Below are positions 22,538 through 41,847 of a stretch of 64,000 nt of DNA, in pieces. The stretch covers positions 3,805,001 through 3,869,000 of the forward strand of contig NZ_CP036281.1 of assembly GCF_007750395.1 (NCBI RefSeq), read 5' to 3'. The number at the start of each line of letters is the position of its first letter. The stretch's first letter is position 1. The stretch is from Polystyrenella longa. GTDB taxonomy: Bacteria > Planctomycetota > Planctomycetia > Planctomycetales > Planctomycetaceae. Below the pieces are notes generated by a model. That model was given only the letters and a program-made list of their open reading frames with translations, was not told where the DNA came from and ran no database searches. Position numbers and translations under genes: made by a program.

Positions 22538-24211
22538 TTATTTCTCGACTAAGCCAAGATCGCTGCGGACGTCCGGATTGGTTATCAATGCGGGATGCTT
22601 GTATTGCTCGGCTGTTCCGCCCCGTTTCTTCAGCATCTCCCGATTGTAATCTTCCCAGCGACCTGTCGGAATTAATTCAACGCGGACGGGATGTAACCGA
22701 CCCGATTCCCGTTTAGCCTCGTATTCGATGTTAGACTTTCGAAGCTCCTCTTCGACCGTATCTGCAAGCTGTGTCGCCAACTCAGAATTTGGAAGGTCAG
22801 ATTCCTCGACAAGCAAGCTGTAACCAGCGGTCTCTCCCTCACGGTCCGGAATCAAACCGTATCCGGCTAGCTTCAGTTCCAAGTGTTTGAGTGCCGCGCT
22901 GACAGAACTGGCCACTTGATACTCAGACAACTTTTCACCGGTGAGATTCGAGATATTACTTCCCTTATTGAGAAACGCGATCTCCGGTGTTTTTTCAAAG
23001 AATCCGATACATTTCACGACATCACAAATGTGATATCGGTACAACCCGTTGGGGGTGGTCATGATGATGTAATACTCCCCCTCCTTTTCGAGTTCATGGG
23101 CTTCCAACACGGTTGGTTCGTCCGAATCGATTTCGGCGACGGGAATAAACTCGTAATAACCAGTGGTGATATCGAGCACACCGCCGGGCGTATCGTCTTC
23201 CTTCGGGATCGTCATCCGGTTTTCACTGGCAACGAGCCCGATATCTCGAATCGCCGTTTTGTCACTGAAATAATCAGGGAAATGCTGTAAGTAAGATTGA
23301 AGACTTCCCCCCAGCCAGCAGCCGATCATTCCCAGATTCGGCCAGATGTCTCGCGGCCGTAGTGCCCCTGTCTCTTCAAGAATTTGTTCCAGTTCTGCAG
23401 CTCGTTTCGGGTTCGGTTTCAGTTTTCTCCGAACCGCCTTGCGGACAACGTCCGGGAATTCGAACTCGGTGGTGAGCGTCCCCTCATATAAATCTTTAAT
23501 CAATGTCTGGGCGTGCTCCGTACCGAATCGAGCAAGTTTGACATGCGTACTGGGGTTCGGAGAGATCCACATCCCGACATCACGGCTGACACCCAATCGC
23601 CAAGCCAGGTAATATTTCGCATCGGACTGCTTAATCTTGCCACTTTCCGGCGGCAGAACGTAGGTCATCCGAAAGAACGGGTTCTGCATCTGGGTTGTTA
23701 ATCCACTGATGCTACCGCAGGGAATACCCCCTTCGGAGTAGAACTCTTCGTGGTCCGATACCATCGTAATTTTGGGTTTCGGGAACAGGTGCGGGTAATG
23801 ATAAAAGACACCCAGCCCCCACAGCGACCAACCCCTGCGATAGTCATCAACCGATTCATCTGTAACGGGGATGAATTTGCGCGAACTACTCGTACCGCTG
23901 GTCAGCGCAAACATCAGCACTTGCTGATCGCTGAAGAGAATATTCTTCTCTCCCTTTTTGATCTTATCGATATAGGGAGCGAAGTAGTCGTATTCCGAAA
24001 TAGGCACCCGTTTACGAAACTCTTCGATCGAGTTGATCTCGGAGAAATGGTGCTCCTGACCGAATTCAGAGTTCCGGTTTCGTTTCAGCAGACTGAAAAG
24101 CAGTTCCTGCTGAATCTTCTGCGGTTCTTTGATCGCGGCGAAAAACCGGTTGACCTCTTTATTCGCTTTTCGGCCCAGTACCTTTTGCACGAGGGTCAAC
24201 CATAAAGACAT
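22538..24211 (-). CDS. GH3-family acyl-acid amido synthetase-like enzyme
   Basis: The 557-residue protein matches the GH3 (auxin-responsive promoter) family over its whole length. It has the adenylate-binding loop LTSGTSSS at 103-110, a Y-E-F/T-T-G-Y-Y-E-F-I-P-like segment near residue 350 and a YRYHICDVV motif near residue 400, both typical of the family. Plant GH3 enzymes activate acidic hormones with ATP and conjugate them to amino acids; bacterial relatives are mostly uncharacterised. It is the last gene of the minus-strand arginine cluster, 56 bp after argF, so co-transcription with argF is likely. Its substrates could be an acyl acid and an amino acid, but that is inference. Confidence 0.87.
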   Translation of the reverse strand: MSLWLTLVQKVLGRKANKEVNRFFAAIKEPQKIQQELLFSLLKRNRNSEFGQEHHFSEINSIEEFRKRVPISEYDYFAPYIDKIKKGEKNILFSDQQVLMFALTSGTSSSRKFIPVTDESVDDYRRGWSLWGLGVFYHYPHLFPKPKITMVSDHEEFYSEGGIPCGSISGLTTQMQNPFFRMTYVLPPESGKIKQSDAKYYLAWRLGVSRDVGMWISPNPSTHVKLARFGTEHAQTLIKDLYEGTLTTEFEFPDVVRKAVRRKLKPNPKRAAELEQILEETGALRPRDIWPNLGMIGCWLGGSLQSYLQHFPDYFSDKTAIRDIGLVASENRMTIPKEDDTPGGVLDITTGYYEFIPVAEIDSDEPTVLEAHELEKEGEYYIIMTTPNGLYRYHICDVVKCIGFFEKTPEIAFLNKGSNISNLTGEKLSEYQVASSVSAALKHLELKLAGYGLIPDREGETAGYSLLVEESDLPNSELATQLADTVEEELRKSNIEYEAKRESGRLHPVRVELIPTGRWEDYNREMLKKRGGTAEQYKHPALITNPDVRSDLGLVEK

Positions 24212-24267: not shown

Positions 24268-25185
24268 TTATTGCTGCTGTTTTAACCAGAGCATTAATCC
24301 TTTTGCCAGATGCATTCTGTTTTCCGCTTGCAGGAACGCAGCGGACTGTCCGCTATCCATGACTCCGTCGGTCACTTCATCTCCCCGATGGGCGGGTAGA
24401 CAATGCAGAAACTGACAATGCTTCGGCGTTTTCGCCATCAGCTTTTCATTGATCTGATAAGGCTCGAAAATCTTTTTTCGTTTCTGCTCTTCCGATTCCT
24501 GTCCCATGCTGGCCCAGACGTCGGTGTAAACCACGTCGGCCTCTTTAACCGCCAAGTCGACATCGTTGGTCACGTTGACCGACCAGTTGGGATATTTAGA
24601 GCACAACCGTTTCAGTAATTCAGGATCGAGTTCAAAACCGGCAGGCGTACAGATGGTGATCGGCATCCCCAACTGGGCCGTGATGATCGCCAGCGACGCG
24701 ACGACATTGTTTCCGTCTCCAACGTAGACCAGTCTCCGTTCGCGGTAGTCGTCGAACAGTTCCGACATTGTAAAAATATCCGTCAGCGCCTGACAGGGAT
24801 GATAACTGTCAGAGAGCGCATTGATGACCGGACAACTGGACCAGTCAGCAAATTCATCGATAAACTTCTGTGAGAAAGTTCGAATCGCGACGAAGTCGGA
24901 ATAGCTACTGACGACGCGGGCGACATCGGCGAGAGATTCCCGCCCTTTGAGCCCGGCCTCCTGAGTCGTCAGAAATATGCCGCCCCCTCCCAGATGGATC
25001 ATCGCCGTTTCAAAACTGTGGCGAGTCCGTAGTGAAGGTTTCTCAAAGAGCATGGTAATCACATGCCCGGCCAGATGAGCTTCCCGTTTTCCTGCTTTCC
25101 AGCTCGCTTTCAAATCGCGCGCTGTCTCTAGTACTGCTTCCGTTTCGGAAGGCTGCCAGTCGAGCAAGGTTTTCAGGTGTTTCAT
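24268..25185 (-). CDS. argF: ornithine carbamoyltransferase
   Basis: The 305-residue protein carries the carbamoyl-phosphate binding motif S51-L-R-T-R55, HPCQALTD, and the ornithine-loop motif HCLPAHRGDEV near the C terminus, which together identify OTC rather than aspartate carbamoyltransferase. It makes citrulline from ornithine and carbamoyl phosphate in the cytosol, the step before argG (at 47440). It follows argD by 200 bp on the same strand, but a terminator hairpin lies between them at 25291-25313, so it may be expressed partly from its own promoter. The GH3-like gene follows 56 bp downstream. Confidence 0.95.
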   Translation of the reverse strand: MKHLKTLLDWQPSETEAVLETARDLKASWKAGKREAHLAGHVITMLFEKPSLRTRHSFETAMIHLGGGGIFLTTQEAGLKGRESLADVARVVSSYSDFVAIRTFSQKFIDEFADWSSCPVINALSDSYHPCQALTDIFTMSELFDDYRERRLVYVGDGNNVVASLAIITAQLGMPITICTPAGFELDPELLKRLCSKYPNWSVNVTNDVDLAVKEADVVYTDVWASMGQESEEQKRKKIFEPYQINEKLMAKTPKHCQFLHCLPAHRGDEVTDGVMDSGQSAAFLQAENRMHLAKGLMLWLKQQQ

Positions 25186-25385: not shown

Positions 25386-26591
25386 TCAGGCTTCGTCAGC
25401 CATTTCCCGCAGTGCTTCGGCGATCACTTCAAAGCCTTCGTCGAAGATTTCGGTTGTGGTGTTTAGAGAGGGTAGTAACCGAACCACTGTATCGTGAGTC
25501 GCGTTAATCAGCACCCCCTGCTCCATACACTTCTGAACTGCCGGTTTTGCCGGGATCGTCAGTTCGGCACCAATCATCATTCCGCAAACCCGCACGTCCT
25601 GAATTATTGGCAGCTCTTCCTGCAATTCTTTGAATTTGGCCTCAGCGTGAGCAGAAACGATCTGCACATTCTCAAGCAGGTTTTCTTCTTCGATCGTATT
25701 GACCGTCGCAATTCCCGCTGCCATGGCGATCGGGTTGCCGCCGAACGTGCTGGCATGCATGCCCGGTCGCAGGCTCGGAGAAACCTCTTCCGTGGCAAGA
25801 ATTGCTCCACAGGCAACGCCACCGGCGAGCCCTTTTGCTAATGTCATGATATCAGGTTGAACGCCGAAGTGCTGGTAACCGAACCAGGTCCCCAGTCGCC
25901 CCATCCCGGTTTGGACCTCGTCAAAGATCAGCAATGCACCGTATTCGTCGGCGAGTGCTCGCAGACCTTCCAGGAACTCTTTGGTCGCCACATTAACGCC
26001 ACCTTCGCCCTGTACTGGTTCAAGCAGAATCGCGCAGGTCTCGTCGTCAATCAGTTCTCTAACCGCTTCCAGGTCATTGAATGGAGCATACCGGAACCCG
26101 GCCATCAGTGGACCAAGCCCTTCCTGGTACTTCGGCTGAGCTGTCGCCGTTAATGTGGCGAAGGTTCTCCCGTGAAAACCGTTCTCGAACGTGATGACTT
26201 TATGTTTGCCTTCAGAACTGTGTAAGCGGGCCAGCTTGATCGCCCCTTCGTTTGCTTCGGCACCACTGTTACAGAAGAACGCCTGACCGAAACCATGCGT
26301 CGTCAGCTGTCGTGCAAATTCACCCTGCTGCTCGGTGTACCAGGTATTTGGTACATGAATCAATCGGGCAGCCTGTTCCTGAATCGCCGTCACCAGTCGC
26401 GAAGGGGAGTAACCGAGGATATTACAGCCCCAACCGGGAAAGAGGTCGAGGTACCGTTTCCCTTCCGCATCCCAGACATGACACCCTTCTCCGCGAACAA
26501 GGCTGATTGGGTACCGACCGTAGTTCGGGATAACGTGTTTATCAAAGACCTGAATGACTTCCTGACTCGAAAGGAAACCTGTGGTGCTCAC
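25386..26591 (-). CDS. argD: acetylornithine aminotransferase
   Basis: The 401-residue PLP enzyme has the class-III aminotransferase pattern: [17 protein letters not shown] (cofactor phosphate binding), [14 protein letters not shown], and the lysine that binds PLP in LAKGLAGGV. Length and order match ArgD, which converts N-acetylglutamate semialdehyde to N-acetylornithine. It follows argB by 120 bp on the same strand. A related reaction on succinylornithine or GABA cannot be excluded by sequence alone, but argB and argF on either side support arginine synthesis. Confidence 0.94.
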
Positions 26592-26711: not shown

Positions 26712-27605
26712 TTACTGGACGATCTCGGTTCCGATTCCGGTATTCGAATAAATTTCAAGCAGAACAGTATGCGGCTTTCGGCCATCCACAATATGAACTT
26801 TGTGAACCCCGACATCCAGTGCTTCCAAGGCCGCTTCGACTTTGGGAATCATACCAGATGAGATTGTACCATCCGCAATCAGTTCCCGTACGCGACCGAT
26901 GGTCAAATGGGACTGTAACGTTTCCGGATCATTCGGATCGAGATAGATCCCAGAAACGTCACTCAGGAAAACGAGCTTTTCGACTTCCAGGTCACGAGCG
27001 ACCGCCGCAGCAGCGGTGTCCGCATTGATGTTGTATCGGTTTCCGTTTTCATCCAGTCCAACGGAGGGAATAATGGGGATGAGACCGGACCGACATTTTT
27101 CTTTGATTAAATCGCAGTTAACGCGAGATACCTGACCGACAGCGCCTAGATCGATTGGGTTCCCTGAATCATCCTTCAGAATCAGCTTTTCCGCAATAAG
27201 GCTGTTTTCACTGTCAAAGTGCAGGCCAATAGCCTGGGCCCCCTGACGTTCAATCTCTTGAACCAGAGAAGAGCAAATTTCGTGGGCAAGCACATCGGTC
27301 GCGATCTGGAGCGTTTCTGGATCGGTGTAGCGGCGGCCCTGAACCCAGCGCGATTCAATTCCAGCCGCCTCGACAGCCTTATTAATCGCCTTACCGCCAC
27401 CATGAACAATCACCGGGTGCATCCCGACCGTTTCCATGAAGATGACGTCCGTCAGAAACTTATTAATCGCGTCCCGGTCCTCAAGCGTGCTACCGCCCAA
27501 TTTAATGACGACGTATTTTCCTCTAAACCGGCGTATCCAGTTGAGGGCTTCTACGAGGACCTGTGCTTTCCGGACTGCTTCGTCCAAATCGTTGCTCCAT
27601 AACAT
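26712..27605 (-). CDS. argB: acetylglutamate kinase
   Basis: The 297-residue protein contains KLGGSTLED (ATP phosphate binding), [12 protein letters not shown] (acetylglutamate binding) and a C-terminal [13 protein letters not shown] and LSDVSGI, all characteristic of ArgB. It phosphorylates N-acetylglutamate, the usual first committed step. The N-terminal extension before YVVIKLGG (about 30 residues) resembles the regulatory N-terminal helix of arginine-inhibited ArgB enzymes, so feedback inhibition by arginine is plausible. argB starts the minus-strand argB-argD-argF-GH3 run; its promoter should lie in 27606-27865, next to the 12-bp tandem repeats. Confidence 0.95.
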
Positions 27606-27865
27606 CTTGAGTCGACTCTGCCGACTCGGTCGCCATTATAAACGGCAAAATGGGGAATCACTTATTTTGATTGGTGCGGATGAGGTTGTCAATCAACGGA
27701 GGCAAATTCGGATACGAGATGATGCGACCCACAATGTTGGTGCCCCAGAGTTGATTCGACGACTGCGATCAATTGAAATCGATTTCCCGCTTTTCAAGTG
27801 GGATAAGTTGACACTTCTACCGAATCTGGTTGGAGTAGGTGTATACAGTGTCGTTAGTGCATATC

Positions 27866-27934
27866 CAAACAAACTGTCAAACAAACTGTCAAACAAACTG
27901 TCAAACAAACTGTCAAACAAACTGTCAAACAAAA
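27866..27934. repeat. 12-bp tandem repeat, five copies plus a partial sixth
   Basis: The unit CAAACAAACTGT is repeated five times without error at 27866-27925, followed by a partial unit. The 12-bp length keeps a reading frame, and it lies in the intergenic region between argB and the divergent RidA-like gene, just before its real start. The lack of any change between copies suggests a recent slippage expansion. It could alter spacing in a promoter or leader, but no function is shown. Confidence 0.9.
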
Positions 27935-27985
27935 TATCCATCACGAATCCACCCGATCCAAACAATGAATAACTACTGGTGCTCC

Positions 27986-29233
27986 ATGCTCGATTATCAT
28001 TCTCATCTATCTTATCTCCGACCGTCTCTGCTTACGGCAGCCGTCTTTGCTCTCTGCCTGACGATGGGTGTTACACCTGCACCGGCAGAAGATGCCGTCG
28101 AAAGTATCTGGTTAAACGAATCGAGTCTATATGCAGACGCCGTCGTCGTGCACGATCAGGCACTAGTCCACAGCGGTCTGATCTTGCCTATTGGGAACTT
28201 TGGCGAAATCGCTGAGGGTGATTTCAAGGCCCAGTTATCTCAACTGGGAACGAACATAAGAAGAATTTCACAACCAGTCGACAAAAAGCATCATAAAGTT
28301 CTGATTCGCTACCATTTGGCATCCGAAGAGCATCTGAATTACATGAACGGAGAAGTAAAAAAGCACGCCGGCCCCGCTGATCACTCCCGCCCAATTCCGG
28401 TCATGACCTTGGTCGTCAGTCCTCTGCCACATCCAGAAGCTCTCGTCGGAGCCGAAATCATTTTCGCCACTGAAAACCAATATAAAGAAGTCACCTATCT
28501 TCCCACCTTCTTGAAAGAACACCGACTGACTGTTCTTCCACGTGGTCGAGCTATTTATATTTCCGGACAGCTGGAAAAAGGGGACGGCACCATCGAAACT
28601 GCCCGGTTGACCATGGAGGGGTTGCATAAGACTTTAGAACACATCGGTCTTGATGCGTCTCACGTCGTCAGTATTCGCACATTCCTCGATCCTATGTCCA
28701 AAGTGGGCGAAGTGGACGAAGTCGTCAACAGCTTCTACACAGGCGATATGAAGCCATCCATTACCCACATGGAATGGAAGACGACGGACAGCATCGAAAT
28801 TGAGATGGTCGTATTCGCGCCCGATGATGTCAGAATCGAAGGGGCTGATTCCAAACAGTCCGTACAACACTTCTGGCTTCCCTGGTTGACCGTCTCCCCC
28901 GTTTACTGCCGCTGGACGCTGGTGAACAGCCCGGACCGTATTTATATCGACGACATTCTGGCCCAGAATACGGCCACTCATGAAGAAGAGATCCATGAAA
29001 TCTTCGGAAAGATGAAGGAGATTCTCACCGCGACGGGCAGCGACTTCAACCATTTAGCCAAGGCAACCTACTACACGACTAACGCTGAAGTCAGCAAACC
29101 CTTTGGGCAGATTCGGCCAGAGTACTATGATCCCGAACACCCTCCCGCCGCATCTTTGGCGCGCGTACAGGGAATTGATGGGAAATCGAACTCCATCGCA
29201 ATCGATATGATCGCCGCTCCCGCGTCGAAATAA
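27986..29233 (+). CDS. exported protein with three RidA-like (YjgF/UK114) domains
   Basis: The start is placed at the ATG at 27986, giving 415 residues and a signal peptide (ending near APA-ED, residue 35); an upstream in-frame ATG at 27839 would translate the tandem repeat as a CQTN repeat and is unlikely. The mature protein looks like successive RidA-like modules: about 38-150, about 165-290 (YISGQLEKGDGTIETA, HVVSIRTFLDPM) and about 310-415 (a QNTATHEEEIHEIF helix, LAKATYYTT, PPAASLARVQGI). RidA proteins deaminate reactive enamines or imines; here an exported three-domain version probably has another role. Whether the catalytic arginine is kept in the last module is plausible (ASLARV) but untested. 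A bidirectional terminator follows. Confidence 0.75.
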   Translation: MLDYHSHLSYLRPSLLTAAVFALCLTMGVTPAPAEDAVESIWLNESSLYADAVVVHDQALVHSGLILPIGNFGEIAEGDFKAQLSQLGTNIRRISQPVDKKHHKVLIRYHLASEEHLNYMNGEVKKHAGPADHSRPIPVMTLVVSPLPHPEALVGAEIIFATENQYKEVTYLPTFLKEHRLTVLPRGRAIYISGQLEKGDGTIETARLTMEGLHKTLEHIGLDASHVVSIRTFLDPMSKVGEVDEVVNSFYTGDMKPSITHMEWKTTDSIEIEMVVFAPDDVRIEGADSKQSVQHFWLPWLTVSPVYCRWTLVNSPDRIYIDDILAQNTATHEEEIHEIFGKMKEILTATGSDFNHLAKATYYTTNAEVSKPFGQIRPEYYDPEHPPAASLARVQGIDGKSNSIAIDMIAAPASK

Positions 29234-29264: not shown

Positions 29265-29306
29265 AAAAAAGCGTTCTCACACTTCTTATGTGGGAACGCT
29301 TTTTTT
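29265..29306. terminator. bidirectional intrinsic terminator
   Basis: A run of A, an 11 bp stem (GCGTTCTCACA with TGTGGGAACGC, one G-T wobble), a 7-base loop and seven T form a terminator that works on both strands. It lies between the convergent RidA-like gene and the C45-peptidase gene. Confidence 0.88.
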
Positions 29307-29325
29307 ATTGCGGCGAGGAACTCAG

Positions 29326-30819
29326 TTAGACAACGACTTCTTCCAAGCTCGCTTCTTTCGATGTCTGCAGAAGCAACTGATTAAGATCAAGCTCGTAGTA
29401 ATGATCGTCCCGGGTGGGTTCCATTGGTCCGGGAGTGATGAACAACCGGCCTTCCTGGGGAGCGAATACCAGACTTCCTTGATTGTCGTTCCGCCGAACC
29501 GTGTTCTTGGTCGGGTGATTGGGAATTCGCTCCCGCTGGATATCGTATCGATCCCGTAACGAAGCCTGGGCTAGTTCAAGACTGACTTCCTCTTCCTCAT
29601 TCCATTGAAGTAAATCCTCTAATCGCTGAAGGCGGTATTCCGAGTGGCTGATTCGGTTCCCCGTCTCCGGTAGCATAATGGAATGATTCGTACTGAGTAA
29701 CCGACTCAGATTGCTACGAACGAAGACATCGTGTCCCTCGTATTCCAAATAGCAGATACGACCGGTACTCGCTTCACTCAGACAAAGCGACCAGGCCCCG
29801 TTTCGATCCATATCATGAAACACCGCGAGAGCGGACTCAATGCTGTCAGCTTTCTCCAGAATATTCTTTACAATCGCTGGGTGAATTCTTCCCTTGGATA
29901 TTTCCGGATGACGGGGTCGGTCGAGCAGAATCGTTGTCGAAACAGTCAAACCGCACTCGTTAATGCCGTTAAGGCCCCCCACCTGCCCTGCAATCGAATA
30001 CAGCAAGTTGCGATAGCCATCCTTCGGGTTCCGTAACTGCAACACCCGCCGCATGGCGGAACCGATCAGCATCGTGATGGGAGAATCTTCATTCACGCAG
30101 TGCAGCATTCGGCCGCCACGATTCGCCTCTTCCGAAATCGCAAACTGCGAGCAACCCGGAATGTATTCCGGATACAGACCAAGATTATGCCCCAGGGCCG
30201 CCGGAAAGCTGATTCCCATCGCATCGGCCAGACCGTGGATCTCTTCGATTTCAGATTCGCCGAAAAAGATCGTCGGGTCGGAAATGGCGTCATTGAGTTC
30301 AGGGATATCAAACAGTCGCGGACCCAGGACTTTCGCCACTTTCCGTGTTACCTGCTTCGTTTGCGCCGCTTGATTGCGACCATGCTGGAAACCCATCTCG
30401 TAGGGAGTTCCGCTTAACTCCACGACAGGAATCGGAAAGCCATCCGGAATGGAAGATTCAGACTGCTGACGTAAATCGAGGTTCTGATAAGTTCTTTCAG
30501 AAGATAGTTTTCGCTGGATGAAGTCCAGGATTTGGCGTAAAGAACAGGAGCCTCCCAAGGGCAATTCTTTGATCAAACCGACCAGCGAGCTGAGATTGAA
30601 TTGCTTTGAGACTTCAATCAACATCTCAATCTGCATACACCCGTCGATGAAATAATCATCATCGAGCGCTGCATCCAGATCGAATAGTCGAGCGGGATAG
30701 CCTGTTTTTTGACTCAGAAATTGAACGCACGCTTCAGCTAATGCATCCCTGCGAGAAGACAATCGAGGTGAACTCATTTTACCTGACCAGTAATCGCTAC
30801 CCGTTCCTGACGCGATCAT
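29326..30819 (-). CDS. C45-family acyltransferase/peptidase fused to a degenerate acyl-carrier-like domain
   Basis: The 497-residue protein has two parts. Residues about 25-105 look like a polyketide-type acyl carrier domain (QKTGYPARLFDLDAALDDDYFID), but the serine that normally carries phosphopantetheine (IDS) is replaced by G60. Residues about 130-490 match the C45/acyl-CoA:6-aminopenicillanic-acid acyltransferase family, an N-terminal-nucleophile hydrolase. It has a GC-S pair with the likely self-processing nucleophile C223 (PGCSQF), then GGRMLHCVNEDSP, and a GGLNGINECGL segment. Such enzymes cleave after a Gly to expose Cys and then hydrolyse or transfer acyl groups. No polyketide gene is in the window. 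It is an unusual architecture; whether the carrier-like part binds a partner instead of a cofactor is unknown. An in-frame ATG at residue 15 is an alternative start. Confidence 0.75.
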   Translation of the reverse strand: MIASGTGSDYWSGKMSSPRLSSRRDALAEACVQFLSQKTGYPARLFDLDAALDDDYFIDGCMQIEMLIEVSKQFNLSSLVGLIKELPLGGSCSLRQILDFIQRKLSSERTYQNLDLRQQSESSIPDGFPIPVVELSGTPYEMGFQHGRNQAAQTKQVTRKVAKVLGPRLFDIPELNDAISDPTIFFGESEIEEIHGLADAMGISFPAALGHNLGLYPEYIPGCSQFAISEEANRGGRMLHCVNEDSPITMLIGSAMRRVLQLRNPKDGYRNLLYSIAGQVGGLNGINECGLTVSTTILLDRPRHPEISKGRIHPAIVKNILEKADSIESALAVFHDMDRNGAWSLCLSEASTGRICYLEYEGHDVFVRSNLSRLLSTNHSIMLPETGNRISHSEYRLQRLEDLLQWNEEEEVSLELAQASLRDRYDIQRERIPNHPTKNTVRRNDNQGSLVFAPQEGRLFITPGPMEPTRDDHYYELDLNQLLLQTSKEASLEEVVV

Positions 30820-31424: not shown

Positions 31425-32237
31425 GTGCGCCGGAGTAAAGTTTTGGAAAAGATTCGAGCAGGGAAAGTCGCTCGAATCTGCTGTCTGGGACACGTCGTTC
31501 CCGCCTTCGTCCGTTTTGCCGCTGAATTCGGTTTCGACGGTATCTGGCTCGATAATGAGCACCGGGCCATGAGCGACCGCGAAGTTCAGATGATACTTGC
31601 CTATTTTCAACTGCACGACATCGACTGCATTCTGCGACCGCCCACCCTTGAAAAAAGCCGGCTCTACCGCTATCTGGAAGATGGAGCGACTGGCCTGATG
31701 ATTCCCCACGTATCGACGCCTGAGAAGGCTCACGACCTCGCGCAATCGGTCAAATTTCCTCCGCTGGGTGATCGTGGTCTCGACGGAGCCGGGCTCGATT
31801 CCGACTTCATGTTCGATGATATCGATGAATATGTGAAATTCGCGAACAAAGAAACATTTCTCTGCGTACAGATCGAAACCGTTGAAGCAGTAAACAATGC
31901 GGAAGCCATTGCCGCTGTTCCCGGTGTCGACTGCCTGTTCGTCGGTCCTGGAGACCTGGGGCTTCGTCTGCGAAATATGGACAATCCCCCCTTTGACATC
32001 AATGGGGCTCAGAAAATTGTCTCCGAAGCGACGAAGAAACATGGCAAGTCCTGGGGACAGCCCGCGTTCAACAAAGAGATGGTCAAAGATTTACACCAGA
32101 ATCTGAACGCCCAGTTCCTGAACTTCGGTGGAGACTTCGGTGCTCTTCGCGGCATGCTGGAAGAAAATGCCGGACAATTGGACGAAGTTCTGGGCGAAGA
32201 CTATAAATCAGAAAAGCCCAGCCGGAAGACTTATTGA
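31425..32237 (+). CDS. HpcH/HpaI-type aldolase
   Basis: The 270-residue protein fits class II pyruvate aldolases such as HpaI and 2-keto-3-deoxy-rhamnonate aldolase. Landmarks are WLDNEHRAMSDREVQ, a P-H-V segment after the second helix, GLMIPHV, CVQIETVEAVNNAEAIA (metal-binding glutamate) and VDCLFVGPGDLGL with the expected aspartate. It would cleave a 2-keto acid into pyruvate and an aldehyde with a divalent metal. The substrate is not evident. The start is GTG at 31425, with AGAAGG upstream. A 2Fe-2S ferredoxin gene follows 69 bp later on the same strand. Confidence 0.88.
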   Translation: MRRSKVLEKIRAGKVARICCLGHVVPAFVRFAAEFGFDGIWLDNEHRAMSDREVQMILAYFQLHDIDCILRPPTLEKSRLYRYLEDGATGLMIPHVSTPEKAHDLAQSVKFPPLGDRGLDGAGLDSDFMFDDIDEYVKFANKETFLCVQIETVEAVNNAEAIAAVPGVDCLFVGPGDLGLRLRNMDNPPFDINGAQKIVSEATKKHGKSWGQPAFNKEMVKDLHQNLNAQFLNFGGDFGALRGMLEENAGQLDEVLGEDYKSEKPSRKTY

Positions 32238-32769: not shown

Positions 32770-35700
32770 TTAACGACCGCGGCGACCTCGTCCGCGACGG
32801 GAGTTATTTCCACTTCCAAAGTTATTTTGAGGGAAAAGTTCCTGCAGCACTTCACGAGCGCGGCTGGAGTTAATCTTCTTCAGCGGTACAACTCGGAACG
32901 TCTGAGTCGATTCAGTCTCGGCCTTTTGATCCAATTGTTCGATTAAATCGACGACCTGATTCACCAGTCGATCTGCACCAGCAACGATAATCGAGTTCGT
33001 ATCTTCATCGACCGTCAACGTGAGCAGTGGGCCCGCCATTGTAATGTTGATCTGCTGAATCGTCGTGGCAACTTCCAGCGACACTCCTGTTGGAACCGGG
33101 ATCGGTCGTGCACCTCCTGCACTTCTGAGCTCTGAACTGTAAATATCTCTCAATACTGCTTCGATTCGAACTGCCGGAGCATTTTGGACGGTTACAATCC
33201 GCGGCTGATTCTGTTCAAGGACTTTGTTGCTCTCTTCCGTATCGAGAACCTGCAACAGTTCTTCAACCATGTCTCGTTCTTTTTTGTTTCCATAAACGAT
33301 GAGGGCATTCAATCGTTCGTCTGCCTGAATCGTAATGGAAGAAAACGGTGAGAAGCTGGTTTGACGATTCCGAGCCCCCCCACCTCGTCGGCGATTGTTC
33401 CCGTTGAACAGATCGTCCAGAGTATCTTCCACGCTTTCTGCACTCGCGTACTTCAACTGGAAAATAACAAAGTCCTTCCCAAGAGAAGGCTGTGATTCGT
33501 TACGGGACATTGCTCGTAATAATCGTTCAATCTGATTAAGTGCTTCCGGATCATCGGAAGAGATCGTAATGCTGTCACTACCGGGAGCAATAATGACTGG
33601 AGGTGCCGACTCGTTATCCGCATTCTCTTGCACAGAGATATCGGGTCCGGGTTGTGTAGGCATCGGCTGCTCGGGTTGAGTCGGTGCAGGTTGCGCCGGC
33701 TCAAGTTGATTGTCCTCGACTGCAGCAGAAGGTTTTACGGGTGCGGCTTCCTGGGGTGCCGCAGCAGGTTCATTGAACTGAGACGGAACATCTTGGCTGG
33801 CAGATGGCGTATTCGCTTTCTCCTCTGCTTCTGCTTTCTCCGCTTCTTCAATCGCCTTCAGTTTCGCTCGCGCTTTATCAATGAGCTTTTGCATTTCCTG
33901 CTGTTCCCGCAATTCTTCAGCTGTAGGTTGAGGCTCTGCAGCCTGTTCTGTAATTACCTCTTCCACCGATTCTGTTTCCGCCGGTTCTACAATGGCTTCT
34001 TCCACTAGTTCCGCTTTCTCGGCTTCTACGTCATCTTGAACAGAAAAGTTAGCGTTGTTTTCCGGGTCAGTATTTTCAGGGGTGTCCTCATGAATCTTCC
34101 GAAACTTACGCATGGTCGGTGCGACGGCGGAAGGGACGACTAGTTTAATACGGTTACTCCGCAACTGAGGCCAGATTCTCTGTAACTCTTCAATCGCTTC
34201 CTGGGTGTTTCCTTCGAAAGGAATGACTCGGATTTTCTTGTTATTGGAAGAGGTACTCTCGGCCAGGTGGTTTTCACCCATTTTGACGAGGAACTCACGG
34301 ATATTCTTAATCTGCTGATCCGAGCCACGAACCAGCAACTGCTGATTGGCGACGTCGGAATCGATCAAGGGTGCGGACGGATTGTCGTCCCAGATCGAAT
34401 TCCCGAAGAATCGTTCCACTGCCGCTTCCGCAGTGTAGGCGTCGTTCAGTTGCAGGTTAAAGACTTCGAGTTTTTTACCTTCATCCGGATCCATGTCGAG
34501 TTGCGCAATGGTCTCTTTGACGCGAGCCTGGTCTGTTTCCGAAGCAGTAACGACGATGGAATAGTTACTGGCATCGATACCAACTTGAGCATCAGGAACT
34601 GAACTTCGTAAGGCGACCTGGAGTGAACGTGGATCAGCATTCTCAAGACGATAGACGGCAATCGTGTTTTCTGTGGTTCCCTCTTCGAGAGCGACCATCA
34701 TTTCGCCTATTCGCTCATGCTCGATTGGTTTCGCATACACGACAACCGAGTTTGATTCTCTGTTTTCAGTGACACTCACGGTTCGGCTGTTTCTAAAGAG
34801 ATCCGTGATCACACGAAGCAAAGAGTTCGAAGCAATCTTTTCGCTTTGATAGACTTTCGAAACACGATCCGTCACAACTTGAGACTCTTCGGCTTCCAGT
34901 TGTTGAATCATTTTCTCCACTAGCGCCTGTTCTTCCGCTGATCCGGCCACCATCAGCGTATTACTTTGATTATCAAAAGAGACATTCGCATCAGGCAACA
35001 TTCCTCGTAACACCTGATACATCGCGCGGGCATCAATTTCGTCCAGTTTGTAAACCTGACTAACGATTTCTTTTGCTGATGCTTCAATCGCGGCGACCGC
35101 TTCTTCAATCTCGACCATTTTCTTTTCAGGAGCGAAGGCCATCACCATCCCACCTTGAGGATCGAGAGAAATACTGACTTCCGGATTTCGGCGAAACTGT
35201 GCCAGTAAAAGTTGATACAAGGAACGCCCGGAAACCTTAGAGCTCGAAAAAGCCTTTGATATGGATGTGTTTTTTTGTTGGTCAATTTCGGCGATAGTGG
35301 CAGCGATTTTTTCCTGATATTCAGCAGGCGCATGAGCCATAATAATATTATTTTGCGGGTCTACCGAAAAATAAATGTCCTGTCGGAACCGATACAGATT
35401 CTGCAGCATATTCACTAACGAGTTCGGCTGAACATTTTCGACCGGGTAAGCTTTAATTTCCTGGTTTGTTTGACTTCCCTGGACATCAATTGACTCCAGC
35501 ATTTCCGCAAGTCGTGCGTGATCATTATCAGAACCGACAAACACAATGGATCGGGTCGGTTGATCGGGCACGGCCGGATTTCGAGGAAACATAGCCCGGA
35601 CGATTCCAAACGTCGCATTCACATCGAGGTTTTTTAGTGGATACGCCTTGGATGTCTGTGCTGCACCCACTGAGTCGAGACTGTCGATGAATTCGGCAAT

Positions 35701-38700
35701 CTCCACATGCTGTGGATCGGTTGCGTAAGCAACGAGTGTGCTCGTATTGGCGTCCATCGAGAAGCGGACTTCGGGTTGGAATGCAAACAAAGTTTGCAAC
35801 ATACCCATCATACTGCTCACTTCGACGTTATTAATTTTGTAATGCTTCAGCAGGTTCCCTCGTGAGGAAGCCTCTTTTGAATCCATCTCAGCCACTGCGG
35901 CGGCAATCGTTTCCTGATCCGCCGGCGAAGCAGTGACGACCAGGCTGCGAGCACGTTGATCAACGGCGATATTCGCCTGCGGAGTCAACGTACGTAAAAC
36001 AGCTATAGCCGCATTTGGATCAGCATGTTGAAATCGGTAGACTTTGGGGACTGGTTTTTCATCTTTTGGTAGTTTCTCTACCAGGTCGGTAATGGCTGCA
36101 GCCAACCCCTCCATCTGATCTTCGGGTGCCTGCACAATCAAATTGTCTGTCGCGGTGTTAGGCGTAAAGTTGGCGTTCGCTTTCAAGTCCGGCTTTAAGA
36201 ATTCCAGCAAGGTTATGTGACTGACATTGTTGAGAGGAAAAACCTGAATCGCTCTGTTTTCACTGTCTCCCAGGCTGCTGTCCAGTTTTTCAACAATGGC
36301 AGCCAATCCTTCATGCTCGTTCGGTCTGGCCCAAATGGCCAAGTGCCGTGGATCTTGTGTCGTCGTAATTCGAGTCTGTGGAAAAGCCATCTGCAAAATC
36401 GCGATCGCATTGGCGGCGGGAATCTTGTTGAAGGTATAGGTTTCCACATAAGCATCCTTGGCGGGCGGGCCATCAGATTTAATCTGCTCGATGATCTTGT
36501 CGATCTTTGCCAGTTGAGCAGGTGAACCCCAAACCATCAGTTTGCTGGGGTCCTGACTGTAAGAAACAACAATGCCCGGAACAGCATTGGCAACGATAGG
36601 ATAGGCATAGGCCGACCCTGTCGCTTCTAATGTGTAAATTCTCAACTCGAAATCATTGCCACCTGCTTGGGCATCCAGCTTGGTAACCATTTCCTGAATT
36701 TTGACATGCTGTTCCGGTGTCGCCCAGGTCACTAACTTTTTGTTGTCGGGACTGGCGCCAAAGCGAACGGAAGGGTGGGCGGCCTGAATGATCGACTGCG
36801 CGACACTGGCCGGGACAGTTTCCAGCGAATAGACCGTCATTTCTCCACTGTTTACCGCTGTCTCTTCAGCTTCTAATTTATCCACAATGGATTTGATTTC
36901 ATCATGTTCCGCAGGAGTCGCCCAGACAATCATTTTGTATGGATCGGGCGAGTGACCAAATCGGGCAGAGGTAATCTCAGCCTGAATGATAGGCACAACC
37001 GCAGTTGCCTGTGTTGCATTAAAGCTATAAACCCTCATCTCGGCATCCTTACCGACAGGTCCCTGCTCTTCCAGCTGAGTAATAATCTGAGCAATTTCCG
37101 CATGACCCGACTCAGTCGCCCAGATGATCAACCGTTGCAGAGAATTACTGGTAGCGAAGGTCGCGCGGGGAACAGCCTGTTGAATCACGGGGACGACCAT
37201 ATTGGTATCGATCCCTTTCAATTCATAAATTTTCATCGAAGCATTTGATTGAGGTTTCCAATCGGCATCGATCTGCTCGATCATCTTGGCGTATTCAGCA
37301 TGTTCTTCTTCTGATCCCCAAAGAATGATCTTATAAGGATCGGCAGTTCCGAGCGTGTATTTCGCTTGTGGAAAAACCATCATCAAGGTTTGACCGGCAT
37401 TGGCTCCTGGAATACTTTCGAGCGAATAGACTTTCAATGAAGCCGTTTCATCGATCTGACCTGCATCGAGTTTTACAATGATATCGCGAATGAGCTGAAT
37501 CTGGCTTGGTCGCGCCACCACCATCACAGCGGTGTCATCCCGGGAAGCTCGAACTTCCACGTCGGGTAATGCATCTTCCAATAATCGGCGAACATCGTTC
37601 GCATTGGCTTTCTTCAAAGCGATCCTGGCCGCTTCTGGCTTTTCAGCCGAGTCCGACTGTTCTTTCAGCTTCTGAAGTGTTTCCGATAGTTTCTGGTGTT
37701 CTTCCTCAGTGGCGATGGCGATGATCGTCCCCGCATCGGGGTCGTCTTCCAGAGTCGCTCCGGGAACGAGCTGACGCAGCAATTTAACCAAGTCGCCGCC
37801 GCTTTTACCTTCCAGTCCGGGATAGACAGCCGTGGTTCGATCCGATTCGTCGCTGGCCGCTTTTGTCTGTGCTTGCATTTTTTCCAGGATTGAAGCCAGT
37901 CGATTCTGAGCTTCTTCGTCACCGAAGATAATCACATTATTTGCAGTAGGATCATGAGTGACGCGTGCCGCAGGAGCGGCCTCCTGGAGTATTGGCTGAA
38001 TTACGGCAAAGGTGACATTCTTCAACGGAAGGATGACGAAGTTCTGTTGAAACTCACCCGGTTCGCCACTGTCGATCTGCTCGAGCGAGGATTTAATCGC
38101 TTCCTGCAGAGCTGGACGGGTCCAGGCAAGAATCGAACGGGTCCGAGTCTCCATCATGAATTTTGTATCAGGAAACAAATTCTGCAATACAGCCAGAGTT
38201 TCCGTCGGTTCAGCCACTTTCAACTTATAGGAGATTAGTTGTTGTTTTTCAGCGAGAGGTACATCACTCTTAATCTGCTCCATAATGCCAGTCAGCTTCT
38301 CGTGCTGTTCAGGTCGAGCCCAGATGGCAAGTTCTCCCGGAACGGTTTCCGGCAAGACTTGTAACCCCGGGAAATCTAGCTGCAACGTCGGAACTAAAGC
38401 CTGAAAACGTTGTTTCTGGATCGAAGTGACAGAGTAGCTCTGCAGAACGTTTTCCGCTTTCTCTTCGGTTCCCGCTAACAGTTTTCCAATGTTCGCTTCT
38501 GCTTTTGCCTGATCTTTGCTCTTCGCGATAACCATGATACGACTATTCGGCTCGTCGTGAGTGATCGTTGCCCCCGGTGTCATCTGTTGGAGCAAGCTGA
38601 TGAAGTTTGGCTCCAGCTTTTCGGGAACGGGGTAAAACTTAAAATCAGCTTCTTCTTTTTTAGGCTCTTCCGCGTCGAGTTGATCGACAACCGCTTTCAG

Positions 38701-40779
38701 TGCGGCTTGTTCTTCAATGTCAGCAATCACAATCAAACCACGACGACCGGGGTCGACCATAATCTGAGCCTGTTTGAACAAACCTTGTAAAACAGTCATG
38801 GTGGTTGTGGGATCGGCCCGTTCCAGTTTGATCAATTCAATCTGCCGGTTGGGACGTTCCTCCGAATTGGTCGTCCACTCATCCAATGCACTCTGAACCT
38901 GTTCGTGCTCACGAGCCGTCGCAAACGCAAGTAGCTTGGAAGTCTCGGTATCCCAACTAAGTCGAACAGTGGGTAGCAGTTGTTGTAAATTTGTGACGAC
39001 TACAGTCGAATCGAGCGAACCGATGTCGTAAAAGTCCAATTTCTGAAGTGAATTGTCAGGGACATCAATCTGCTGAAGAGCGGCTTCAATTTCCGTTTGA
39101 ATCGCATCGTCAGCAATCACCAGCAGGCGTTTGCCTTCTAATGTAATTTTGGCAGTCGGAGCAAGCTCCTGCAGTGTTGTAACCAAACTGGTCGAGGGAG
39201 TTTCCTTCAGCACATACGTCTTCAGATTACTCTGATTCTCTGGCTCTTCCTGCAACTGATTGAGTAGAGACTTAATCGCCTCATGCTCTTCCAGTGTCCC
39301 AAACGCAACGATGGCATTCTGGCGTTCATCGGAGGTCAATTTAACACGCGGCAACACCTGCTCCAGCAATACGAGAGCAGTTGCCCGTTCGATGTTTTTC
39401 AACCGGTAGACTTCTACCTGGCGTTCGTTACTGCTGGGGACCCCACCTGAGCCCAGTTTCTCCAGGATCGATTTCACTTTCGACTGTTGATCGGGTGTGC
39501 CAAACACAACCAGTTGTTCCTGGGCCACATCATGACGAACCTGAACTTCGGGCAATCCGAGTTGAACAGCTGCAACCGTCTCGACAGCATTTGCAGGATC
39601 GACCGGATACACTTCCAGCGCGGCACTCATTTCGGGTGCGGTATCAGCACCAATCTGTTCGACAATTTTCGCGATAGCGTCATGTTGTGGAGGAGTTGCA
39701 TAGGCATTGATTCGTTTCGCTGTTGGATCAGCAACGAACTTGGCTCCAGCGACCAGCTTTTCCATCGTTTCAATCGCGGCTTCCGCATCGAAGGTTTCGG
39801 CAGGGTAGAAGCGCAGTTCTGGCTCAGGTGGTTTAGGTTTGTCTTCTTTCTTCGGTGGTTGTGGAACAGGAATGCTTTTGATCAATTCCTGAATACTAAC
39901 CAAACTCTTAACCTGGTCCGTCACGATTATCTGTCCCGTTTTCGGCAACAGTGAACTTTCGCCATGCGGGCCCAGCATGGGTTTTACTTCTGTCTCAACG
40001 TCAGTCGGTACACGTCCTTCCAACGGGAAGACGGTGGTAACCAGTTCGTACCGTCCACGCTCAGCCCACTCTTCCGGTTTAATTCGGGGAATCAATTCCT
40101 TGGGCAGTTTTTCAGAAAGATCAACAACCATCAACATGCTGTCGCGACGGATCAACGTGTAATCCTTGGTTGCCAGCCAGCTGTTCATCTTGTCGATCGC
40201 TTCGCTCGGTGTGTATTCCCGATTGTCGCGGTAGTTAAATGTTCCGGGTGGTGGTGCATCAATGACCAGAGAAAGCCCGGCCTGGTCCGCAAACCATTCA
40301 AGCACGTCCGACCAGCGCGAGTATTTGAAATTGAACCGAATCTTCGGTTGAACCAGTTTCACAAATTGATTCAGTTGCTCGACATTCAATATTCCTCTCA
40401 ATTGCACGTCGCTGGCAGCGATCAGTTCGTCGCGCGCTTCCGGAGCGGCCGAGACGACTGTCTCCGCTCGTGAGGTGAGCAATTCTGCAACTTTCGCCTT
40501 CTGTTCATCGGTCAGTCCAATCCCAGCCTGTATCGTAGGATCGCCCAATCGAGCGTAAGGCACAGCGAAGTCCGTCACGGGTGCCGGAGGTGCAGGAGCC
40601 GGAGTTTCTGGTGCGGGCTGAGCAGGCTCGGCGGGTGCAGGGGTGTCGGCAGGTGCTGCGGCCGCATCTTGCCCGAACGTTGAGGGCAAATTCCAAAGAG
40701 CCAGGCTACACCACAAACTTGCACTCATCAGGCACAAGTATTGTCGGCGGAAGGAAGTGAAACTGAATGCTGAAGTCAT
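32770..40779 (-). CDS. giant exported protein with ~30 tandem secretin N-domain-like repeats
   Basis: From the ATG at 40779 (AGGAAA 11 bp upstream) the product is 2669 residues; an ATG at 40842 would add 21. It begins with a signal segment and an Ala/Pro-rich stretch. A helical part follows, then an N0-like domain (roughly residues 145-225). From about residue 235 to 2220 about 30 successive ~66-residue units repeat the pattern Y-x-L, amphipathic helix with L-x-x-x-x-P, D-strand, I-x-V/W-A, and H-x-x-I helix (KVYSLESIPGAN and WATPEQHVKI are examples). The units resemble secretin N1/N2 domains. A Glu/Pro/Gln-rich linker (about 2230-2405) leads to three more such domains and a basic RG-rich end (NNSRRGRGRRGR). 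No secretin outer-membrane barrel domain is present, so it may be a periplasmic scaffold or pore-lining component; that role is inferred. Confidence 0.85.
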   Translation of the reverse strand: MTSAFSFTSFRRQYLCLMSASLWCSLALWNLPSTFGQDAAAAPADTPAPAEPAQPAPETPAPAPPAPVTDFAVPYARLGDPTIQAGIGLTDEQKAKVAELLTSRAETVVSAAPEARDELIAASDVQLRGILNVEQLNQFVKLVQPKIRFNFKYSRWSDVLEWFADQAGLSLVIDAPPPGTFNYRDNREYTPSEAIDKMNSWLATKDYTLIRRDSMLMVVDLSEKLPKELIPRIKPEEWAERGRYELVTTVFPLEGRVPTDVETEVKPMLGPHGESSLLPKTGQIIVTDQVKSLVSIQELIKSIPVPQPPKKEDKPKPPEPELRFYPAETFDAEAAIETMEKLVAGAKFVADPTAKRINAYATPPQHDAIAKIVEQIGADTAPEMSAALEVYPVDPANAVETVAAVQLGLPEVQVRHDVAQEQLVVFGTPDQQSKVKSILEKLGSGGVPSSNERQVEVYRLKNIERATALVLLEQVLPRVKLTSDERQNAIVAFGTLEEHEAIKSLLNQLQEEPENQSNLKTYVLKETPSTSLVTTLQELAPTAKITLEGKRLLVIADDAIQTEIEAALQQIDVPDNSLQKLDFYDIGSLDSTVVVTNLQQLLPTVRLSWDTETSKLLAFATAREHEQVQSALDEWTTNSEERPNRQIELIKLERADPTTTMTVLQGLFKQAQIMVDPGRRGLIVIADIEEQAALKAVVDQLDAEEPKKEEADFKFYPVPEKLEPNFISLLQQMTPGATITHDEPNSRIMVIAKSKDQAKAEANIGKLLAGTEEKAENVLQSYSVTSIQKQRFQALVPTLQLDFPGLQVLPETVPGELAIWARPEQHEKLTGIMEQIKSDVPLAEKQQLISYKLKVAEPTETLAVLQNLFPDTKFMMETRTRSILAWTRPALQEAIKSSLEQIDSGEPGEFQQNFVILPLKNVTFAVIQPILQEAAPAARVTHDPTANNVIIFGDEEAQNRLASILEKMQAQTKAASDESDRTTAVYPGLEGKSGGDLVKLLRQLVPGATLEDDPDAGTIIAIATEEEHQKLSETLQKLKEQSDSAEKPEAARIALKKANANDVRRLLEDALPDVEVRASRDDTAVMVVARPSQIQLIRDIIVKLDAGQIDETASLKVYSLESIPGANAGQTLMMVFPQAKYTLGTADPYKIILWGSEEEHAEYAKMIEQIDADWKPQSNASMKIYELKGIDTNMVVPVIQQAVPRATFATSNSLQRLIIWATESGHAEIAQIITQLEEQGPVGKDAEMRVYSFNATQATAVVPIIQAEITSARFGHSPDPYKMIVWATPAEHDEIKSIVDKLEAEETAVNSGEMTVYSLETVPASVAQSIIQAAHPSVRFGASPDNKKLVTWATPEQHVKIQEMVTKLDAQAGGNDFELRIYTLEATGSAYAYPIVANAVPGIVVSYSQDPSKLMVWGSPAQLAKIDKIIEQIKSDGPPAKDAYVETYTFNKIPAANAIAILQMAFPQTRITTTQDPRHLAIWARPNEHEGLAAIVEKLDSSLGDSENRAIQVFPLNNVSHITLLEFLKPDLKANANFTPNTATDNLIVQAPEDQMEGLAAAITDLVEKLPKDEKPVPKVYRFQHADPNAAIAVLRTLTPQANIAVDQRARSLVVTASPADQETIAAAVAEMDSKEASSRGNLLKHYKINNVEVSSMMGMLQTLFAFQPEVRFSMDANTSTLVAYATDPQHVEIAEFIDSLDSVGAAQTSKAYPLKNLDVNATFGIVRAMFPRNPAVPDQPTRSIVFVGSDNDHARLAEMLESIDVQGSQTNQEIKAYPVENVQPNSLVNMLQNLYRFRQDIYFSVDPQNNIIMAHAPAEYQEKIAATIAEIDQQKNTSISKAFSSSKVSGRSLYQLLLAQFRRNPEVSISLDPQGGMVMAFAPEKKMVEIEEAVAAIEASAKEIVSQVYKLDEIDARAMYQVLRGMLPDANVSFDNQSNTLMVAGSAEEQALVEKMIQQLEAEESQVVTDRVSKVYQSEKIASNSLLRVITDLFRNSRTVSVTENRESNSVVVYAKPIEHERIGEMMVALEEGTTENTIAVYRLENADPRSLQVALRSSVPDAQVGIDASNYSIVVTASETDQARVKETIAQLDMDPDEGKKLEVFNLQLNDAYTAEAAVERFFGNSIWDDNPSAPLIDSDVANQQLLVRGSDQQIKNIREFLVKMGENHLAESTSSNNKKIRVIPFEGNTQEAIEELQRIWPQLRSNRIKLVVPSAVAPTMRKFRKIHEDTPENTDPENNANFSVQDDVEAEKAELVEEAIVEPAETESVEEVITEQAAEPQPTAEELREQQEMQKLIDKARAKLKAIEEAEKAEAEEKANTPSASQDVPSQFNEPAAAPQEAAPVKPSAAVEDNQLEPAQPAPTQPEQPMPTQPGPDISVQENADNESAPPVIIAPGSDSITISSDDPEALNQIERLLRAMSRNESQPSLGKDFVIFQLKYASAESVEDTLDDLFNGNNRRRGGGARNRQTSFSPFSSITIQADERLNALIVYGNKKERDMVEELLQVLDTEESNKVLEQNQPRIVTVQNAPAVRIEAVLRDIYSSELRSAGGARPIPVPTGVSLEVATTIQQINITMAGPLLTLTVDEDTNSIIVAGADRLVNQVVDLIEQLDQKAETESTQTFRVVPLKKINSSRAREVLQELFPQNNFGSGNNSRRGRGRRGR

Positions 40780-41847
40780 AAGGTCGATTTCCTGTCGGTT
40801 GATCTCACTTGCTCTCAGTCTGGAAAACAAAGAGACCAACACGAATTTGAAAATGAAGCTACGGGTAGCAATAAATCAGAAGCCCGAATTAAATAGGACA
40901 AACAGAGATACTACAAAGCGAAAGGGATGATCCGATTTTTCTCGCCAGTGGAATAATTCAGGGGGAAGTTTCTTAACGGAATGAGATCGTGCAGGTCACA
41001 GTCATTTCTAAAACGGATTCGCAAGAGGTGCGGAAAAGTATCTGTTCAGATATAACTGCGTTCGGGAAAAAAGTTCTTTCTAGTTCAGAACCTTCCTCCC
41101 CGGAGGGTAGGAACTCACGACGTCTAATCAGGGTGGGGTGCTCGACTTTCGTCTCACAAATCATGAATCGAAGGCGGGAGGGAGCAGAACAGGGTCTATT
41201 CCCCAGATGATTCATTTGGAAAGTTCTCTCTAGAATACCTCACGAAGTTGGTCAGGTAAAGAGTTTTGGAGGATTTGTGTCCTTTAGGAAGTCGCATCCC
41301 TTAGGTAGACAATGTTCAGTAGCCTGTTTCACCCTTGATGAGCGCTTCTCAATCATCAGTACACGTTAAAGCAACTCACGTGCCCGGCAGCCAGGTATGT
41401 TTCAGTAAGTCGCTTCCAATGGACTCCAAAACCACTTCTAACTCATGTATTACGCTATTTTGTGATTCCATGAACTCTTGATGAACATCCGCCTGGGGGA
41501 TTCCTCACCCTTCCTTGGGCAAATCGACGTTTCCGAAAAGCAACAGGGCTCCACTCGGGATGTCGCAGAAAATAAACAGTCGTCGGTCTTGTCCTGAGGG
41601 AGATTTCTCTAAAAAAATTAATCCGCGATTCCTCAAATTACAGGCTTTCTCGAATCATTTCAGACTGTATTTCTCGCTCTCAGTCATTCTGGCACACGAA
41701 TCGCGTAATCACTCTTCGTCTCGTCTTTCGTGAATCAGTGCACTGCATTGAATACTCATAACGACCTCCATCAGAGACATGCCGTCCGCAGGCACATGAG
41801 CAGGTTCAAACCATTGAAACTGTAGCCACTTTTCGAGGAATGCCACG
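40780..41847. other. about 1 kb without recognised genes upstream of the giant gene
   Basis: Between the giant gene and the small gene at 41848 I find only short shadow frames. Some G-rich and pyrimidine-rich stretches occur (for example near 41093-41113, a hairpin-like CCTCCCCGGAGG) but none that I can assign. It should hold the promoter and leader of the giant gene. Confidence 0.4.

Follow-up and report, generated by a model that had tools for sequence, protein, structure and literature searches.

The gene considered here raises the question of why an apparently intact hydrolase of the C45 N-terminal nucleophile (Ntn) family should be joined to an acyl carrier protein (ACP)-like domain lacking the phosphopantetheine serine, and from what such a protein might have been derived. 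The window analysed is a stretch of 64,000 nucleotides (G000:C1:3805001-3869000) from the complete 6.13-Mb genome of Polystyrenella longa, and its relevant features are collected in Table 1.

Domain architecture of the solo protein

The open reading frame begins with an ATG preceded by an upstream AAGGAA, and its product, hereafter the solo protein, has two orthologues within the genus (G001, 77% identity; G002, 74%), where the flanking genes are also the same as far as the contigs reach. No KS, AT, KR or DH domains were detected either in the 497-residue protein or in the products of neighbouring genes. Between the gene and the convergent RidA-like gene (window positions ~29265-29310) lies an inverted repeat with flanking A/T runs that by eye resembles a terminator.

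The N-terminal domain has no Pfam match, and its assignment comes from profile, pairwise and structural comparisons. Against the PfaA model, residues 18-107 align precisely with its ACP region (1203-1289; E 1.3e-5), blastp pairs the domain with one of the tandem ACPs from a planctomycete megasynthase (E 5e-10), and a profile of the solo protein's family recovers the PigH ACP doublet (PDB: 5y08; E 2e-14). Folded alone, the domain is predicted to form a helical bundle with the four-helix ACP fold (pLDDT 82), and nearly all of the PDB matches listed for this model are carrier proteins (best Z 10.1), although this structural evidence is not fully independent, since ACP homologues were present in the alignment used by the model. 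The initial annotation had described a carrier domain without its serine, and the predicted fold of the N-terminal part, together with the residue at the pantetheine site, agrees with that description. Gly60, numbered there exactly, aligns with the phosphopantetheine serine (FIDGCM versus GIDSIK), and the D-S-[ILV] motif of the phosphopantetheine-accepting serine is absent from the solo ACP domain. That this is a lone mutation can be dismissed: glycine occupies the position in all three orthologues of the genus (G001 and G002 included), and a solo protein from another genus (G105) also lacks the serine. The serine is, however, present in nearly all of the aligned megasynthase ACPs. Given the conservation of Gly60 across the three orthologues, the domain is best regarded as derived from an ACP and not as a working one. 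It also shares a longer loop with the ACPs of most ACP-C45 megasynthases, and its linker to the C45 domain is 28 residues long, versus 46-92 in the megasynthases that carry ACP and C45 on one chain (type A, below).

The C45 domain matches the NCBIfam model NF040521 over its entire length (residues 136-459 against profile positions 1-313 of 313; 135 bits versus a cut-off of 85; E 2.9e-39) and Pfam PF03417 (E 1.7e-12; score 48 versus a cut-off of 23.2). In the full-length model (pLDDT 85) the closest structures to this part are Penicillium IAT (Z 36.0), acid ceramidase (30.0) and NAAA (29.8), and in structural alignments with mature Ntn hydrolases the catalytic chain begins at model residue 223. 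The Gly-Cys pair ending in Cys223, which the initial annotation had singled out with the correct residue number, thus aligns with the Ntn nucleophile, and all of the family-invariant residues of C45 are retained. Among the orthologues the ACP domain is 57-78% identical versus about 80% for the C45 domain, with dN of 0.17-0.33 and 0.08-0.15 respectively and dS near or above 2, that is, saturated. The ACP domain therefore evolves at roughly double the rate of C45, though with low dN/dS, and the low dN at near-saturated dS indicates that both domains are under constraint.

Table 1. Features of the solo gene and its surroundings (window positions)
Feature	Position	Strand	Evidence or remark
Solo ACP-like/C45 Ntn-hydrolase protein, 497 aa	29326..30819	-	ORF, family matches and orthologues
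First residues, MIA[SL]GTGSDYW	30777-30819	-	conserved in three species; predicted disordered
ACP-like domain without pantetheine Ser, residues 20-113	30481..30762	-	PfaA ACP region, E 1.3e-5; ACP fold
Gly60 codon replacing phosphopantetheine Ser	30640..30642	-	alignment with orthologues and megasynthase ACPs
Shortened ACP-C45 linker, residues 106-131	30427..30504	-	28 aa
C45 Ntn-hydrolase domain, residues 130-489	29353..30432	-	NF040521, E 2.9e-39; Penicillium IAT 2x1c, Z 36.0
Cys223 codon, predicted autoprocessing site and nucleophile (Gly222-Cys223)	30151..30153	-	invariant in family alignment
GH3 acyl-acid-amido synthetase, megasynthase-cluster type	22538..24211	-	PF03321, E 3e-77; also PF23571, PF23572
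argF, ornithine carbamoyltransferase	24268..25185	-	OTCace, OTCace_N
argD-like class-III aminotransferase (acetylornithine aminotransferase)	25386..26591	-	Aminotran_3; argD name from context
argB-like amino acid kinase (acetylglutamate kinase)	26712..27605	-	AA_kinase; argB name from context
RidA-like (Endoribonuclease L-PSP) double-domain protein	27839..29233	+	PF01042, two stretches
HpcH/HpaI aldolase, divergent neighbour of solo gene	31425..32237	+	PF03328; conserved neighbour

Relatives within lipid megasynthases

Beyond the orthologues, few of the best matches to the solo protein are small proteins; most are segments of larger ones, which reach about 3,600 residues. In these segments tandem ACPs are followed by a C45 domain within PfaA-like type I synthases (KS-AT-ACPn-C45-KR-DH) of related planctomycetes, and the alignments pass through ACP and then C45 in order, as in G025 (residues 24-483, 38% identity, E 7e-106), G062 (39%, E 4e-127) and further colinear matches in G034, G124, G012, G117, G093, G122, G026 and L005. 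The G034 synthase has the architecture KS-KS-AT-ACP4-C45-KR-DH-DH and is followed by genes for a phosphopantetheinyl transferase, an enoyl-reductase-like SDR and a GH3 amido synthetase. The view of the ACP-C45 pair as an isolated new fusion is accordingly abandoned, the pair forming a regular part of PfaA-like megasynthases in planctomycetes. Planctomycete pfa-like types have been listed by Shulse and Allen, and in the literature searched we found no description of a C45 domain in PKS or PUFA synthases.

On the whole, three types of C45-bearing synthase can be recognized. In type A the ACPs lie in cis and the nucleophilic cysteine is kept, as seen in 13 synthases with an ACP visible directly upstream and in G125, whose upstream part lies beyond view; together with G690 and all four solo proteins these make up the domains that retain the equivalent of Cys223. 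In type B the ACPs reside on a separate protein wherever the flank is covered, and glycine replaces the cysteine in all nine domains; these form one clade (support 100/100), and the loss of cysteine hence counts as a single event. Type C (L089, L090, L091, L149, L150, L193 and L194) combines serine-bearing ACPs with a strongly diverged C45-like domain without the cysteine. The ACPs of the ACP-C45 megasynthases carry GIDS, with the exception of the synthase at L005:162-9767, both of whose ACPs have threonine at the pantetheine site (GIDT). G690 has the arrangement AT-C45 with the cysteine and no ACP between, which rules out the generalization that a live C45 domain always needs an adjacent ACP. 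Fisher tests were set aside as evidence, since their rows are related and G690 breaks the grouping that they presuppose.

The genome of P. longa encodes a type B synthase of its own (G000:C1:3267580-3275862; KS-KS-AT-C45-KR-DH), one of the nine with glycine for cysteine, about 560 kb from the solo gene. Its hgl/pfa-like cluster (G000:C1:3264582-3276766, equivalent to L078:4583-16767) comprises a thioester reductase, a two-ACP protein, the synthase and an SDR. Thioester reductases are encoded in all four type B clusters with a covered upstream flank and in three of five type C clusters examined, and among the clusters with live C45 domains only in G122 and G528. This distribution suggests that reductive release may have replaced C45-mediated release where the cysteine was lost.

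Origin of the free-standing form

In trees of the C45 domain the solo proteins and the megasynthase domains form one clade to the exclusion of ordinary free-standing C45 proteins (96/96), within which the four solo proteins group weakly (59/52). The fourth of these is the G105 protein (539 residues), which keeps the cysteine and has lost the serine by a different change; its N-terminus bears only a faint resemblance to an ACP (hhalign probability 4.7%, E 0.0086), and its classification as a clear ACP was dropped. No further solo forms were found among 170 genomes of the family, 392 across the phylum and 397 across the class (overlapping sets). Since the ACP-C45 pair is standard in megasynthases with serine-bearing ACPs, the solo protein appears to be a derived piece of that architecture. 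A recent duplication of the C45 domain of the synthase in the same genome is rejected (AU test, p 4e-6), and that domain has glycine for cysteine. Architecture and kinship are well supported, and the solo gene is best read as an ACP-C45 di-domain split off a PfaA-like synthase other than the one in its own genome.

The direction of this event is less firmly settled. Fission is favoured over fusion, though not proven, mainly because the solo ACP is of the type found in tandem arrays. The converse, in which synthases acquired the pair by insertion of an ancestral solo ACP-C45 protein, finds room in the AU test, which does not reject a sister relationship of the solo proteins to the synthase C45 domains as a whole (p 0.084). 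We nevertheless consider it quite unlikely: it is not obvious why an ACP of the PfaA tandem-array type should exist on its own, solo forms occur in only two genera among the 170 family and 397 class genomes searched, and a GH3 gene of the type found in megasynthase clusters still lies close to the solo gene.

The GH3 gene and its neighbourhood

The GH3 gene closes a same-strand argB-argD-argF run 5.1 kb from the solo gene, and this order of arg genes and GH3 is kept in G001. A tree of 43 GH3 proteins places it in a clade of ten (100/99) that comprises the window copy, its G001 orthologue, a G022 protein and seven GH3s from C45-megasynthase clusters; other planctomycete GH3s, including the second copy of the same genome, lie outside. 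GH3 genes as such are common, being found in 136 of 170 genomes of the family, so that mere presence means little and only the placement in this subclade and the distance count. On these two grounds, and not on presence, the GH3 gene was set aside from the class of generic neighbours. By a rough estimate the chance of a cluster-type GH3 lying so near the solo gene is about 0.2% (2 x 5.1 kb / 6.1 Mb), making it unlikely that two relics of one cluster type came to lie within 5.1 kb by chance. The description of the fusion as lying outside any polyketide cluster accordingly holds for the gene itself and needs qualification in two respects, namely the PKS with a dead C45 domain elsewhere on the chromosome and the cluster-type GH3 nearby; the lipid or carrier-protein context suggested along with it stands.

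The pairing with GH3 is not obligatory, given that a cluster-type GH3 is absent from G105, the genome of the second solo form, and that no GH3 lies near the C45 synthases of G012, G091, G181, G122 and G528. Nor do the solo and GH3 genes form one transcription unit, as the opposite-strand RidA-like gene, which adjoins the solo gene in both sister genomes too, separates the latter from the arg run. No alpha/beta-hydrolase gene lies beside the window GH3, which is adjoined by the ornithine genes instead. The G022 member of the clade (L177:3175-4923) comes from a genome without a close match to the C45 synthases, and by eye its neighbours are not of that cluster type.

Two further features of the neighbourhood may be recorded. 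The 5' end of the RidA-like frame (27839-27960, plus strand) contains a short tandem repeat, reading TNCQTNCQ or NKLSNKLS in other frames, and the true start of that gene may lie downstream. On the minus strand, positions 32770-40842 encode a protein of 2690 residues, whose C-terminal 1000 residues alone contain at least six Secretin_N stretches.

Functional implications

The overall reading, which we regard as about evenly poised between right and wrong, is that the solo protein is a free-standing ACP-C45 unit of megasynthase origin that releases acyl chains in trans and feeds the GH3 enzyme. The C45 domain would cleave itself between Gly222 and Cys223, leaving Cys223 as the probable nucleophile. 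In the parent synthases it would act as the chain-release domain, taking the chain from acyl-S-ACP to acyl-S-Cys and on to an acid or amide; in the solo protein Cys223 would accept the chain in trans from an ACP or CoA thioester and pass it to water, or perhaps to an amine. The GH3 enzyme encoded 5 kb away could then couple the freed acid to ornithine or a related compound, yielding an N-acyl amino acid. The dead ACP, having lost the capacity to carry an acyl group at the usual site, may persist as a structural or stabilizing element or as a docking remnant. Two published systems serve as precedents. OlsH, a planctomycete GH3 protein, uses ATP to join free fatty acid and ornithine into N-acyl-ornithine (PMC12493201), a product that fits a GH3 gene beside ornithine genes. 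The C45 peptidase AzsT acts on a substrate bound to a carrier protein, and the related Tri14 has been described as freeing a polyketide from its ACP (PMC10445470).

As C45 relatives also make and cleave amides, thioester hydrolysis is one option only. The solo enzyme could instead be an amidase in the manner of acid ceramidase or NAAA, cleaving or remodelling the N-acyl amino lipids made by GH3 and no longer releasing chains at all. After IAT these two are indeed its closest folds (Z about 30), GH3 enzymes make the very amide that such an enzyme would cleave (PMC12493201), and AzsT offers a precedent in that it takes off a succinyl group in amide linkage (PMC10445470). Yet a fold match does not fix the reaction, and the nearest relatives in sequence are synthase domains that directly follow ACPs, a position pointing to thioester substrates on a carrier; we therefore rate the amidase as doubtful. 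A different role in release, as a trans-acting stand-in for the dead C45 domain of the type B megasynthase in the same genome, draws on an apparent complementary loss: that synthase has two serine-bearing ACPs and glycine for cysteine, the solo protein a dead ACP and a live cysteine, and G105 too combines a solo form with type B synthases. This we consider unlikely, as type B is an old clade that has lost the cysteine throughout, most type B genomes have no solo gene, and the thioester reductase found in the type B clusters can release the chain by reduction; the stronger claim, that a solo protein is needed wherever the synthase C45 is dead, is ruled out by the same genomes. Finally, a dead ACP, a vanished parent synthase and the faster divergence of the ACP domain might describe a functionless remnant of a lost megasynthase cluster in decay. 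The frame is, however, intact at the corresponding locus of three species (74-77% identity), both domains show low dN at saturated dS, and every family-invariant C45 residue is retained, which makes this very unlikely.

Returning to release in trans, a wider scenario may be sketched, possible as a whole though put forward tentatively. Planctomycete PfaA-like synthases might use a built-in IAT-type Ntn release domain together with GH3 to make aminolipids; one lineage would have lost the synthase but kept the release domain with a fossil docking carrier, along with its GH3, moved beside ornithine genes, while in a sister lineage of synthases release would have passed to a thioester reductase and the nucleophile been lost.

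Comparison with known systems

Of the characterized systems, Penicillium IAT (acyl-CoA:isopenicillin N acyltransferase, MEROPS C45; PDB: 2x1c, 2x1d) shares its fold with solo residues 130-489 (Z 36, 15% identity) and has its Gly-Cys nucleophile at the same position, but it has no carrier domain and acts on acyl-CoA and 6-APA. AzsT and Tri14, of the azaserine and triacsin pathways, are comparable by description as C45 enzymes acting on carrier-protein-bound substrates (PMC10445470), although they are discrete proteins of actinobacterial clusters for which no ACP-like domain is described there. OlsH of Singulisphaera acidiphila, a GH3-like N-acyl-ornithine synthase, resembles the window GH3 in Pfam family and in the ornithine/arginine gene context, with the difference that the published planctomycete olsH genes lie in an operon with olsI, encoding an O-acyltransferase, and no olsI accompanies the window gene. 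The closest parallel is with the megasynthase C45 domains, which share about 38-46% identity over C45, the colinear ACP-C45 order and the same cysteine; these are embedded behind serine-bearing ACPs with a longer linker, whereas the solo protein is free-standing with a dead ACP.

What appears to be new, judging from sequence, is a C45 Ntn hydrolase of lipid-megasynthase origin that is joined to a dead ACP, the ACP-C45 pair itself occurring inside synthases as well. It points to an IAT-like Ntn-hydrolase release domain in type I lipid megasynthases, distinct from release by thioesterase or reductase, of which the solo protein would be a small, natural stand-alone version, and it would tie this mode of release to the recently reported synthesis of bacterial aminolipids by GH3 enzymes. 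Both the release step and the class of product could thereby be tested on a protein of normal length.
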